From assembly GCF_003144115.1 (NCBI RefSeq), contig NW_020312004.1:712871-776870 (forward strand): 64,000 nt of DNA. The letters are read 5' to 3'. Both the position numbers and the translations under genes were made by a program. The stretch is from Tilletiopsis washingtonensis (lineage: Eukaryota; Basidiomycota; Exobasidiomycetes; Entylomatales). Every line of letters starts with the position of its first letter. Position 1 is the first letter of the stretch. Below the pieces are notes generated by a model. The model did not search any database. It was not told the origin of the DNA and saw nothing but the letters and a program-made list of their open reading frames with translations. Of the stretch, positions 7,104-43,614 are shown in pieces.

Positions 7104-7587
7104 TCACTTGAAGCTCCGCGCTCCCCGCAACGGCGCAAACGAGCCGTGTGCGGGCCCGCCGACCTCCGAGGCCGAGACGAGCTCCATGGGGCCGTGCATG
7201 CGCTTCAGCTGCACGTGGCCGCCCATCAGGAGGTCATGCAGCTTTTGCTGTGCGGCGGGGCAGCATCAGCAGGAGAAGGCGGCGGCGCGAAGGGGTGCCA
7301 AGGCGGGCGGGCGGGCGGGACGCACCAGATCAGTGACTCCTCTGGCTCTCTCGAAGTCATCGCGCAGCCACTGCACCGTCTCGAAGCGCGCCTGCGGGTT
7401 GGGGATGTTGCGCGTGGCGCGCAGGAAGCTGCGGTAGAGCGAGATGCCGCGGTTGCGCATCAGGAAGTGCTCCAGCGTGCCGCCGGGCAGGTCGGGCAGC
7501 TTGCGCCGACGCGGCGGCGACGGAGCAGACAAGGAGGAGGCGGAGGTGGAGGAGGCGGAAGAGGAAGAGGACCTTGAAGAGGAGACA
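7104..7587 (-). CDS. LYRM2: LYR-motif (Complex1_LYR) protein, LYRM2-like; 5' end unresolved
   Basis: Small mitochondrial LYR protein. LYRM2-type members bind the acyl carrier protein and are linked to respiratory-chain biogenesis. Supported exons are 7587(?)-7326 and 7247-7104 (78-nt intron, phase 0). Seen are LPGGTLEHFLMRNRG, then LYRSFLRATRNIPNP with the LYR tripeptide and conserved downstream Arg/Phe, then LRDDFERARG and LMGGHVQLKRM, which match LYRM2 in order and spacing. The stop follows GARSFK. No ATG lies in frame upstream of this homology. The first Met (7460) falls inside the conserved helix and would give 92 aa. A separate upstream exon, or splicing from the neighbouring gene, is needed for a full N-terminus. 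Convergent with DSN1, 270 bp apart. Confidence 0.75.
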
Positions 7588-7789
7588 CTGCGAAAGGGGA
7601 CGGATGCGTTTCAATGCTCTGATATTGCGCAGACGAGAACAGACGGGGAGAAGTGGGCTGAGAGCGGGGAGAGAGAGTGCGGACCTGTCTCCTCCCCCTT
7701 CCCCTTGGCCCGATGCAAGCCTTTGCAGAACGTGCCACTGCCCTTCGAACCGGTGCGGAGAAGGATGGAGAGGGGAGAGAAAGGCAAGC

Positions 7790-10700
7790 TCACGTCCGGC
7801 TGCTGCCATCGGCCTTCTTGCCGCCCTCGTTTGAGCCGCCATCGATGACTGGGCGACGCTTTCCCTCTGCGCGCGAAGGCGAAGGTCAGCATATAGCATG
7901 CATCAGCTCTCCTCCCGCTCTCGAGGACGAAGGGAGGCACGCAATGCGCGTAAGGCAGCAAGGCCGAGCCTGAGGAGATACAAAGGCAGACACTCACCGT
8001 GCTCGTTGAACTGCGAAGAACGACGGTTGGGGCCCCAGCCCGTCGTGGAGCGCTCCTCGGGCGTGACGGCATCTGCGCCTCCACTGAGGGCACATAGTGT
8101 GTGTCGTGGGTAGGAGAGGAGGGAGTGCGTCAGCTCCACGCTTTGAACGGCGCTTGAGCAGCAAGGGAACGGCATGAGGGAAGACGAGGGGCTGAGACGG
8201 CTAGAAGAGGAGAACACAGGAGACGTTCACGTTGCGCTCCTCCGCGAGGGCTCTCGGCACTCTCTCCCTCAGTACACTCCGCGCCACGTCCAAGCTCGCA
8301 ACTTGGCCGAAGAGAATCTTCGGCAAGCCTGCGAATTTGGCCAGGGCGAAGGACACACTGAAGAAGAGAGCGTCGAGCAGAGCAGCAAGCAGAGCACCAT
8401 CTCCTCGACGCTTCGGCCTTCCGTCCGTGCAGCAAGACTCCCTCAACGAGCTTGTCTCTCGATTCGTAGCGCACGGCTACAAGTCGAGGCGAGAGCTCGT
8501 TGAGGAACGCCTCGCTGCACGATTGGACGGATGAAGAGAAGCGCTCCTTCCATCATTTCCCGGCTCCGCTCGTCATCCCTCAACTCAGAGAGCGTTGCGG
8601 AAGAGACTCTTCCGCAAGCTCTGCGAGTTGAAAGATGACGAAGGGCCGCGGAGAACGAGAGGAGGAGCGCGACGATGAGGACTAGCAAGCAGCCATAACT
8701 CCATGCTCGAATAGCAGAGAGAAGCTCTTCGACAAACTCCTTGCCTCGGAGCTGCTCGGAGGTATCCAAGTGCTCAGAGCCGAGACGTATGCTTGTGCTT
8801 GTCGAAGGGCTTCTCTTTGCACCATCGGACAGTTGAGGAGATGAGAATCCAGCACGCTCCTCCCCATCCTTCGCCGCGTCCACGTGCGCCATCATTCAAC
8901 TCGCCGCTGTTGCGCAAGAGCATGCTTGCGCAAGAACTGCGAGTTGAAGAGCGACGAAACAAGGACGCGGGGAACGGCGGGCAGGAAGGTGGTCGCGAGA
9001 AGCTGCAGTGTCCTCAGCCATCCATGCAGAGAAAGCTCTGCGTCGAATCCTCTCCTCCTTTGACTCAGAGCTGCTCGGAGGCATCCAAGGGCTCTGAGTC
9101 AAGGAACAAGCTCGCCGCACAGGTCCTTCTGCATGAATTGCTGAGAGAAGAGGCGCATCTATCGCTGCTTCGTGCTCTCATCCTTCGCTGCAGCTGAACG
9201 AGAACAGGCAACTCGAGGACCTTGCGCAAGATCCTTGCGCAAGGTCGACGAGTTGCACCGCTCCTCCCTCAGCCGCAGGGAAGGATGGGAGCGCTAGTAG
9301 CGCTCCGCCTGGCGCTGACGGATGGGGAGGTAGCGGTGATTCTTTGCAAGCGAGGCAGAAGCAGCAACGCATCATGCTTTCTCGCATCCGGAGCGCTCGG
9401 AGCAGCGCTCGGAAGCTCCGAGCGCTCCGGATGCGAGAAAGCATGTTGCGCAGCCGCTTCTGCATCCCTCGCAGGGAGACTAGCGTCGCCCATCTCCCCC
9501 GCATCGCCCGCTTCTCCACAGCGCAGCGTGCACGTAGAAATGGACACGCAGTGATTCATCGAAGAGAATCTTCGACGAACCACTCGAGTCCACTTTCTCC
9601 AAGCACGATGCGCCATGAAGAGCAAGCGATGAGGAGATGAGAGGGCCGACAAGCACGCCAGCGCGCCGCTTGTTCCTCGTCGCCCGCTTGGCCTTCTCAG
9701 CGCGTCAGTCGTTCCCGGCGCAACTCGACCGCCATGCCGAAGCAGAATCTTTGGCAGGGCTCTCAAGTTGTGCCGGTCCCGCATGACGCGCTGAGAAGGA
9801 GAAGCTCGAGAGGAGTGAGAGGCAGGCAGAGCGTGCCATGTGCCCCCGTCGCGCCCTCATCGAGCGAGCAAGACAAGCTTGCTACTGCCTCGCCGATCTC
9901 CGCACGCTGTCCACTGTTCACAGCGCTCATCTCTGGAACGCAGCGTATAGGCCGACCGCGCGCGAGATGTCCTGCGTCCGCAGCGGCGAAAGCAAGGACA
10001 TCTTGCGCGCAACCAGCGTGAGCACAGCGCTCGGAGTCTGATGCGCTGGAGCAGAGAGGACAACGACGAGGATGGCATGGCAAAGGGTCCCTTGGACCTC
10101 CTCTCCCAGCTGGCTCTCGCGACCGAAGGAGCCGTCAGGTAGACGAAGGCAGCTGGCAACATGATGCGTCGCACTTACTTTGACGCGAGCCACACGCGAG
10201 CGCTAGAGCTCAAAGACAGGCATGTCCTCGAGTTCTAGCGCTCGCGCCTGGTCCATATCAAAGTGAGCGCGACGGATCTGCCGCAAGCCTGCCTTCGTCT
10301 GTCTCTCCAGCTCGCATCTCTCAAGCTTCTTGGCTCGTCTTCGATCGAGTCGCGCTCACTAGCTCTGCCACTGCAATCTGCGAGGAGCAGCATGCAACCT
10401 CGTCCTCTATCTCCTTGGCGCCGCCCACACTCAGCGCCTCACGTAGCCCACGGTACTCACATCTTTGCGCCCTCGGCCATCGTCGCCGCCTCGGGGTGCG
10501 GCGCCGACGTCGTGCTACCGTGCATGGCCACGCTGCATCATCTCATCAGCATCTCATCTCATCTCCACCTCTTTCACTCTGCACTCACCTACTCCCGGCA
10601 CTCCCCTCAGGCGGCGCGCTCATCTGGCTGGGATCCTTGCTGGTGATGGGCTCGTCGGCACGCGTGTAGCCCGGGTGCTGGTGCAGCGCGCCCTTGCCCG

Positions 10701-10791
10701 TCGCGGGCGACGTGCGCGAGGCGTGCGTGGGGCCGGGCATGGGACGTGCGCCGGGCACGGCCTTGAGCAGACGGAGGGCGGAGGCGCGCAT
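7790..10791 (-). CDS. Small conserved-looking mitochondrial-type protein, 139 aa, with a 2.4-kb intron
   Basis: Exons 10791-10589, 10532-10461, 8083-7998 and 7848-7790 join in phase at all three junctions and end in TGA. The start MRASALRLLKAVPGARPMPG is an Arg-rich, acid-free N-terminus typical of mitochondrial import. The rest is short, polar and likely disordered: GALHQHPGYTRADEP, HGSTTSAPHPEAATM, VTPEERSTTGWGPNRRSS and GGSNEGGKKADGSSRT. I do not recognise the family. The composition differs from the surrounding non-coding frames, and all donors are GTGAGT. Intron 2 (10460-8084) is 2377 nt, far longer than any other here, and carries the hairpin array. The stop TGA overlaps a possible donor GTGAGC. 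An alternative is that exons 1-2 and 3-4 belong to different genes. Confidence 0.55.
8290..8341. repeat. Hairpin unit 1
   Basis: An 8-bp perfect stem GCCGAAGA/TCTTCGGC around a GAA loop is flanked by outer arms matching as CCAA..TCGCA..CTTG. The apex is identical to that of unit 9. Confidence 0.8.
8421..8530. repeat. Hairpin unit 2
   Basis: About 50-nt arms: CCGTCC..GTGCAGC and CCTCAACGAGCT on the left are mirrored by AGCTCGTTGAGG, GCTGCAC and GGACGG on the right, with CGTAGC/GCTAC near the apex. Mismatches and small bulges make it resemble a pri-miRNA-like foldback. Confidence 0.85.
8571..8640. repeat. Hairpin unit 3
   Basis: A perfect 11-bp core TTGCGGAAGAG/CTCTTCCGCAA has one central base. 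Outer pairs are AGAGC/GCTCT, CAACTC/GAGTTG and CGTCATC/GATGACG, so nearly the whole 70 bp folds back. Confidence 0.9.
8714..8820. repeat. Hairpin unit 4
   Basis: The 22-nt arms match at 20 positions: GCAGAGAGAAGCTCTTCGAC.. on the left pairs with the right arm ending GGGCTTCTCTTTGC. The ~63-nt interior has further partial pairing (CTCGGAGC / GAGCCGAG-like). Confidence 0.85.
8895..8948. repeat. Hairpin unit 5
   Basis: Core TTGCGCAAG/CTTGCGCAA encloses AGCATG. The outer TTCAACTCG and CGAGTTGAA boxes are perfectly complementary. Confidence 0.9.
9057..9104. repeat. Hairpin unit 6
   Basis: A perfect 12-bp stem TTGACTCAGAGC/GCTCTGAGTCAA surrounds a 19-nt interior; the flanking CCT/AGG extends it after one bulged T. 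Confidence 0.85.
9208..9256. repeat. Hairpin unit 7
   Basis: A perfect 12-bp stem ACCTTGCGCAAG/CTTGCGCAAGGT with ATC loop, plus perfect outer boxes GCAACTCG/CGAGTTGC. Confidence 0.9.
9374..9446. repeat. Hairpin unit 8: perfect 31-bp stem
   Basis: Arms 9374-9404 and 9416-9446 are perfectly complementary over 31 nt around an 11-nt spacer (AGCGCTCGGAA). Weaker pairing continues outward to about 9320 and 9515 (GCGAGG..GCAGAAGC against GCTTCTGC..CCTCGC). The perfect core suggests recent origin or selection on the fold. Confidence 0.95.
9536..9598. repeat. Hairpin unit 9
   Basis: TCGAAGA/TCTTCGA around GAA continues as GTGATTCA/GAACCAC and GAAATGGAC/GTCCACTTTC with few mismatches. The apex is the same as in unit 1. 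Confidence 0.85.
9692..9799. repeat. Hairpin unit 10: ~50-nt arms
   Basis: Left CCTTCTCAGCGCGTCA is perfectly mirrored by TGACGCGCTGAGAAGG. Inside this, CCGG.GCAACT and ATGCCGAAG pair with AGTTGTGCCGG and CTTTGGCA. Weaker complementarity extends tens of bases outward on both sides. Confidence 0.9.
9958..10010. repeat. Hairpin unit 11
   Basis: The 16-nt arms GCGCGCGAGATGTCCT and AGGACATCTTGCGCGC pair at 15 of 16 positions around a 21-nt interior. Confidence 0.85.
10195..10246. repeat. Hairpin unit 12
   Basis: The 17-nt arms CGCGAGCGCTAGAGCTC and GAGTTCTAGCGCTCGCG pair at 16 of 17 positions around an 18-nt interior. Confidence 0.85.
10262..10360. repeat. Hairpin unit 13 (outermost, wide loop)
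   Basis: Perfect 12-bp ends AGTGAGCGCGAC/GTCGCGCTCACT are 75 nt apart; the interior has only partial pairing (GATC/GATC, AAGCC/GGCT). Confidence 0.75.
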
Positions 10792-43089: not shown

Positions 43090-43182
43090 TGCTTGGACGG
43101 GGAATCGAACCCCGGGCTCCCGCAACCGTTGCGATTGACTCGCTCATGGCAAGCGAGAATTTTACCACTAAACCACCCAAGC
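43090..43182 (-). tRNA. tRNA-Gly(GCC): tRNA-Gly(GCC) with intron, copy 1
   Basis: A 93-nt gene. Acceptor GCTTGGG pairs with TCCAAGC, discriminator A. D-arm/A-box TGGTTTAGTGGTAAAA. Anticodon stem CTCGC/GCGGG holds loop TTGCCAT, anticodon GCC. A ~22-nt intron follows the base after the anticodon, at the canonical 37/38 site. T-arm CGGGGTTCGATTCCCCG. No CCA is encoded. It is followed by a short T run on its own strand. Confidence 0.96.
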
Positions 43183-43521
43183 GCCATACTCACCGGCTCA
43201 ACCAAACAGTATATGAACCCTTTGCTCAGACAGAAAGTGCATCAAGCATTCTGAGGCACAAGTCACCTCTCTGATGCAGAGAGTGAGTTGTGCTGACACA
43301 ACATGTGTACTCTTGGCATCAGCACCTCCTGCAATATGCTTTACAAGCTCAGGCAGCAGTCATCAGCCCAACCAGCACTCTTGCTGTCGATCAGCCTTGT
43401 GTGCTAGCTCCTGACAAGGAGCTGCCCTGTGTGCTGCCTCTCAATGCTCGGGATCTGCTGGTGAGCGCAGTCTTTCCAGCAACAGGTTCATATATTGTTT
43501 AGTTGAGACGGCAAGTATGGC
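43183..43521. repeat. Spacer between inverted tRNA copies, with homologous 5' flanks
   Basis: The inner 5' flanks of the two tRNA genes are alike for ~38 bp (GGTTCATATA.TGTTT.GTTGAG.CGG..AGTATGGC on each coding strand). So the inverted duplication includes upstream sequence, probably Pol III promoter context. The central ~260 bp is less GC-rich than the rest of the window and holds no gene. Confidence 0.8.
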
Positions 43522-43614
43522 GCTTGGGTGGTTTAGTGGTAAAATTCTCGCTTGCCATGAGCGAGTCAATCGCGACGGTTGCGGGAGCCCGGGGTTCGAT
43601 TCCCCGTCCAAGCA
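43522..43614 (+). tRNA. tRNA-Gly(GCC): tRNA-Gly(GCC) with intron, copy 2 (inverted)
   Basis: Same 93-nt structure as copy 1 in the opposite orientation. The only difference seen is one base in the intron (GCGACGG against GCAACGG). The mature tRNAs are identical. It is followed by CACTTTTTG, a Pol III terminator. Confidence 0.96.

Follow-up and report, generated by a model that had tools for sequence, protein, structure and literature searches.

A tandem array of long hairpins within a DUF6425-gene intron of Tilletiopsis washingtonensis, with signs that the host-strand RNA is what is kept

The window, that is, the whole 64-kb stretch of DNA analyzed here, has a GC content of 54–75% per 500 bp. 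Ten of its 65 open reading frames (ORFs) of at least 260 amino acids were scanned for protein families. Genes of kinds known in fungi were found among them (an aminotransferase class V protein, which we take to be NFS1-like, a MIS13-family protein, NOC3 and a ThrE-type transporter); five of the ten had no family match, and none of the ten was a transposase. The gene of interest lies on the minus strand and was modeled as follows:

7791–10791, minus strand: host gene, DUF6425, 145 amino acids in four exons, stop codon excluded (gene model and Pfam)
10791–10589, 10532–10461, 8083–7998 and 7866–7791, minus strand: exons of the host gene (gene model)
8084–10460, minus strand: host intron, 2377 nt (splice signals and frame; the DUF6425 profile runs across the junction)

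The stretch 8084–10460 is predicted from homology, splice signals and reading frame to be a real spliceosomal intron, because the exons on its two sides each match DUF6425 and join collinearly. In a Pfam profile search with a cut-off of 25 bits for DUF6425 (PF19989), the exons upstream of the long intron matched profile positions 98–171 (63.3 bits), those downstream matched positions 175–227 (85.9 bits), and the joined protein matched positions 98–227 (159.6 bits, E = 1.7e-46). The original prediction had allowed that the exons might belong to unrelated genes, against which stands the single profile that spans both sides in collinear order; it had also given the protein 139 amino acids, which became 145 on remodeling. 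The long intron begins with the donor GTGAGT at 10460 and ends with a CAG acceptor at 8084, and a branch-like CTGAC lies at 8133, 50 nt from the acceptor end. It is the middle one of the three introns (56, 2377 and 131 nt) in the model of this gene. DUF6425 is a family without known function, which leaves the 'mitochondrial-type' label of the original prediction a conjecture, and was not mentioned in the open-licence literature searched. The host protein had no match in the PDB and no relatives in collections of prokaryote and viral contigs, which say little here.

Just downstream of the host gene, on the same strand, a LYR-motif protein (PF05347) is encoded at about 7140–7800. Read in frame, it seems to follow on from the last DUF6425 exon through a possible intron, the donor of which, GTGAGC, overlaps the DUF6425 stop codon, and an alternatively spliced DUF6425-LYR fusion is possible.

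Folding of the minus strand, with the span of pairs limited to 200 nt, gave a row of rods in which twelve long hairpins of 112–185 nt and 46–73 bp each fill positions 8249–10307. The limits of h5, h9 and h12 were trimmed by hand. Members of the largest group of related hairpins are marked as A family:

h1, 10134–10307, minus strand: 72 bp, −114.6 kcal/mol
h2, 9892–10076, minus strand: 73 bp, −103.1 kcal/mol
h3, 9674–9814, minus strand: 53 bp; A family; plus strand more stable by 0.6 kcal/mol
h4, 9488–9646, minus strand: 70 bp, with nine G-U pairs; possible relative of the A family
h5, 9335–9480, minus strand: 58 bp, including a 31-bp uninterrupted helix; limits trimmed
h6, 9174–9292, minus strand: 52 bp; A family
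h7, 8995–9165, minus strand: 67 bp; related to h9
h8, 8857–8987, minus strand: 53 bp; A family
h9, 8702–8830, minus strand: 46 bp, two loops in the fold; related to h7; limits trimmed
h10, 8541–8670, minus strand: 58 bp; A family
h11, 8420–8531, minus strand: 47 bp
h12, 8249–8375, minus strand: 50 bp; A family; limits trimmed

Eleven of the twelve have a single loop; the exception, h9, is also the weakest, with the plus strand more stable by 4.0 kcal/mol. The apices lie at 8315, 8473, 8606, 8767, 8922, 9081, 9232, 9409, 9567, 9746, 9984 and 10221, so that the ten leftmost are spaced by 159 bp on average (133–179), with wider gaps of 238 and 237 bp before the remaining two. Inverted repeats were also counted by ungapped arm scores, and 13 centers scored at least 24, the thirteenth being a small one at 9297. 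Twenty dinucleotide shuffles gave three such centers in total (best 26, against 95 observed), and the best center in the remaining 61.6 kb of the window scored 33, a value exceeded by 10 of the 13 array centers. The mean z-score of the minimum free energy inside the array was −3.6 on the minus strand and −3.4 on the plus strand (27 windows of 160 nt wholly inside), compared with about 0 outside (−0.05 on the minus strand, n = 771; lowest −4.85 minus and −4.71 plus). By these measures the window has no comparable cluster elsewhere. The hairpin observation of the original prediction holds in nearly every detail tested: at least 13 inverted repeats in one intron, twelve of which were resolved here as long hairpins; a mean spacing of about 159 bp for the first ten, reproduced here; stems of 8 to 31 bp, measured here as uninterrupted helices of 9–31 bp with G-U counted; and a signal that shuffles of equal composition clearly fail to match. 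The description of an intron filled with hairpins applies to 8249–10307, which is packed, and not to the ends of the intron at 10308–10460 and 8084–8248, which fold weakly. The rods cover neither splice end nor the branch-like site but sit between them. None of the 65 long ORFs overlaps the array, a tandem-repeat scan listed no array inside 8084–10460, and Rfam 15, at gathering score, had two tRNAs as its only matches in the window and none in the array. As a separate observation, ATG triplets in 8084–10460 exceeded their number in dinucleotide shuffles on both strands (40 versus 26.2 on the minus strand, 31 versus 23.0 on the plus strand).

The hairpins are in part copies of one another. Clear relatives are h3, h6, h8, h10 and h12, and h7 and h9 form a second pair that shares an apical block of 44 nt with 84% identity. 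Local matches in apical register exceeded 200 shuffles for h6/h8, h6/h10, h8/h10, h8/h12, h10/h12 and h3/h12. The units h7+h8 and h9+h10, whose copies lie 316–319 bp apart, look like the result of one old duplication. Membership of h4 is doubtful. The mean arm identity of the A family with h4 was reached by 2 of the 924 groups of six, itself counted, for either arm, and the apical match of h4 to h12 exceeded 200 shuffles; its arm identities to the others were at chance. A covariance model built without h4 scored it at 39.9 bits (E = 5e-7), which is no proof of kinship, since h5, h1, h7 and h11 also scored 43.7, 37.0, 26.0 and 24.2 bits with the same model on the minus strand with filters off. 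A similarity between h10 and h11 was set aside, as the same bases had been read twice. A single family of foldback units, as had been proposed, is thus seen for the five A hairpins and the h7/h9 pair, and the other five are without clear kinship. Comparison of the array with the rest of the window yielded three short matches (best 15 nt, not above shuffles), and the five-copy covariance model gave no E-value below 0.42 beyond the array, so that by sequence comparison and covariance model the window holds no other copy of the array.

The two strands of the array are not equivalent, on which three interrelated measures agree. The whole intron folded to −1370 kcal/mol on the minus strand versus −1279 kcal/mol on the plus strand. 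Hairpin by hairpin, the minus strand was more stable in 10 of 12 with a summed difference of −100.1 kcal/mol (Wilcoxon p = 0.0024), a sum that 1 of 300 control sets drawn at random from elsewhere also attained; the limits were taken from the minus-strand fold, which gives a slight minus bias, and the controls were random stretches, not hairpins. The arms were also aligned in a strand-neutral manner, with G-T and A-C mismatches scored alike. Read on the minus strand, these alignments contained 71 G-U versus 31 A-C mismatches (on the plus strand, 71 A-C and 31 G-T) over 13 hairpins, the thirteenth of which (8086–8242) had no G-U or A-C cell. The excess gave p = 9e-5 against 1:1 and p = 0.0026 (one-sided) against composition, cells within a hairpin not being independent, and was present in 10 of 12 hairpins and absent in h3 and h9. 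Thirty stems elsewhere in the window lean the opposite way, with 81 G-T and 58 A-C on the plus strand. Because G-U pairs hold RNA helices, the RNA of the host-gene strand is likely the object of selection, and it is the signs that this RNA is what is kept that are new here. Strand-biased mutation could contribute to the G-U excess. A nucleosome-spaced DNA element, one of the readings originally offered, is disfavored, because DNA gives no reason for an excess of G-U over A-C on one strand.

Whether pairing is kept between copies was examined on the paralogues of this one genome, which were aligned by sequence alone, with the structure taken from the same sequences. A first covariation test that included h4 found 23 of 37 pairs changed on both sides and 87.8% of cells paired, with none of 500 shuffles reaching any measure. 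It was repeated with five copies after the arm identity of h4 had proved to be at chance. When the analysis was confined to the five clear copies, both partners of 19 of the 47 pairs had changed in one copy or more, and 84.0% of cells were paired, compared with 41–47% when partners were slid; 1 of 500 shuffles, which ignore the relatedness of the copies, reached the double-change figure, and none reached the other four measures. With h4 included, mean identity of the stem columns was 55%, and 88% of stem cells were paired (of 222 cells, 169 were Watson-Crick, 26 G-U and 6 A-C). The covariation term of RNAalifold was +0.28 for the five clear copies, which is no support, versus −4.16 with h4. 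Most of the double changes come from distant, less surely aligned pairs, since they are rare between the closest copies (h8/h10, 3 of 31 shared pairs; h6/h8, 3 of 26; h7h8/h9h10, 2 of 39), and misalignment can make false covariation, as discussed in part of one study (PMC8250186). The cleanest double changes are gap-free apical pairs, in alignment columns 57–72 and 58–71.

The helix adjoining the loop is the best conserved part across the five copies, and the apical AAG/CTT helix is unchanged in all five. Because the copies share this apical register, the hairpin should predate their split. Stem columns were more alike than unpaired columns in 14 of the 15 pairs of the six copies, so that sequence is constrained too. 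Arms free of constraint would have diverged from each other just as the copies did, whereas here pairing seems to have been maintained through sequence change. The RNA fold itself is therefore probably of use to the cell, perhaps by supplying small RNAs. The original proposal of a tandem foldback family carried in a transcript therefore stands insofar as strand asymmetry and pairing-keeping changes both point to the host-strand RNA, less firmly from covariation than from strand asymmetry.

The explanation that we tentatively prefer, giving it somewhat less than an even chance, is that the array is a tandemly amplified hpRNA or miRNA-like cluster in the host intron, cut by Dicer-type enzymes. 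Judged from sequence and folding, the DUF6425 pre-mRNA would carry about 12 rod-like hairpins of 46–73 bp. Selection would keep these paired as host-strand RNA while much of the sequence drifts, a step with moderate to good support; the rods would be freed, either from the pre-mRNA or from the spliced-out intron; and a Dicer-type RNase III could then cut them into small RNAs that silence targets, as in hpRNA and intronic miRNA clusters. Small-RNA production from the array is plausible given the shape and length of the rods, their tandem amplification, the pairing kept with changing sequence and the place in an intron. The array also has the feature by which hpRNA loci are recognized, a long, nearly complete inverted-repeat RNA in one predicted transcript. 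A 22-nt duplex of miRNA quality was found in 12 of 12 hairpins on the minus strand, but also in 12 of 12 on the plus strand, and the test is weak, as 89 of 383 control windows (160 nt, not length-matched) passed on the minus strand. Qualifying duplex positions numbered 3–64 per hairpin, above the highest control (24) in 8 of 12. The first 24 columns of the 5′ arm contain 18 that are invariant among h6, h8 and h10, and no invariant 20-nt arm stretch runs across the five copies; since conservation of a mature arm is limited to those three hairpins, classical miRNAs are not well supported. No candidate target was found in the window, where no match to the array exceeded shuffles.

Ustilaginomycotina are listed among the groups with loss of RNAi in a review (PMC7763443). 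The lineage may lack RNAi, which we count against cutting by Dicer. The window contains long uninterrupted ORFs of up to 1078 amino acids, not all of them shown to be genes. Some basidiomycete groups with RNAi loss are intron-poor, and the long ORFs would fit such an intron-poor lineage. Should the lineage lack Dicer, the array would instead be a repeated structural intron RNA of a new class. Rods that Dicer does not cut would mean that a strong repeated RNA structure is kept in a long intron for another reason.

Known systems resemble the array in part. The passages on hp-CG4068 of Drosophila (PMC10317233) describe tandem long hairpins in a common transcript, as predicted here, with an unstable copy number (20 copies in D. 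melanogaster and 9 in D. simulans). The siRNAs of that cluster, which are lost in dcr-2 mutants, have been shown together with a target, whereas the present array is predicted from sequence, has strongly diverged copies and lies within a DUF6425-gene intron. The miRNA cluster of mouse Sfmbt2 intron 10 likewise consists of many hairpins, amplified as head-to-tail copies within a single protein-gene intron, but that region, according to sections of PMC3212979, covers 55–65 kb and is rich in B1 retrotransposons and CA/TG microsatellites, in contrast to the compact 2.4 kb here. Intronic miRNAs of Chlamydomonas have their precursors in introns of protein genes and are described, in excerpts of PMC4817775, as DCL3-dependent without a requirement for splicing; the tested intron holds one stem-loop rather than a tandem dozen, and processing was shown there. 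Fungal milRNAs also have hairpin precursors, with a high intronic share in Cryptococcus neoformans, but in the parts of PMC9757828 that bear on this they are very rarely wholly intronic outside that species. The words 'tandem', 'cluster' and 'polycistron' did not occur in its main text as searched, and a fungal intronic hairpin array was not among the matches listed in the open-licence literature (titles and abstract openings). On re-analysis in the same source, only about 10% of published fungal hairpin small-RNA loci fell into the highest support tiers (PMC9757828). Such loci being poorly established, a dozen diverged hairpins packed into one intron and bearing an RNA-strand signature would make a strong natural test case, the copies of which permit comparison within one genome. 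A bolder reading, to which we give rather less credence than to the hpRNA or miRNA-like cluster itself, is that a fungal intron might serve as a nursery of fast-evolving hairpin RNAs, a counterpart of animal hpRNA arrays in which the rods are selected more for pairing than for sequence and each gives its own guide RNAs.

The leading alternative is that the array helps splicing by its structure, which we consider unlikely enough to rank as a minority view: rods that form co-transcriptionally would shorten the 2.4-kb intron and hide false splice signals, pairing mattering and sequence much less. The contrast between 55% stem identity and 88% paired stem cells in the six copies with h4 is consistent with such a role, as is the position of the rods between, not over, the splice ends and branch-like site, and intron stems of yeast are described in part of PMC12350175 as shortening distances and diverging fast in sequence. 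Those zipper and downstream stems, however, are defined by a position close to splice signals, unlike the dozen rods here, which are away from them. Branch-like CTRAY was below shuffles on the minus strand (3 versus 8.5), but it was about as rare on the plus strand (2 versus 6.6), and donor-like GTRAGT was not depleted on the minus strand (2 versus 0.7), so that these two motifs, compared with shuffles, gave no strand-specific signal for the masking of false splice sites. Near-perfect rods of 46–73 bp also seem to go beyond what compaction would need.

Less probable is a noncoding RNA scaffold or decoy, in which the rods would bind a dsRNA-binding protein uncut, either as part of the intron RNA or on an independent transcript from that strand. 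It would share the RNA-strand signature and the kept pairing, and similar rods of different sequence would suit recognition by shape, as would the unchanged apical AAG/CTT helix suit the scaffold itself; the array has no Rfam match, though.

We regard as similarly improbable an origin at the DNA level, with inverted repeats made and renewed by template switching or arm-to-arm conversion, or left behind by fold-back elements, and no function as RNA. In its favor, the 31-bp uninterrupted stem of h5 is such as fresh conversion would give, covariation support is mixed, and some of the G-U excess could be imitated by strand-biased C-to-T mutation. Against it, conversion should bring back Watson-Crick pairs on both strands alike and leave neither strand with more G-U than A-C; stems elsewhere lean the opposite way; no copy of the array was found elsewhere in the window; and none of the ten ORFs scanned, out of 65, was a transposase.

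Two further features of the window were recorded. The two tRNAs are tRNA-Gly (gcc) genes of 93 nt each, in opposite orientation and about 340 bp apart at 43090–43614, and the pair adjoins the 500-bp stretch with the lowest GC content of the window. The heptamer ACGGTGG occurs in nine perfect copies at 258–320.
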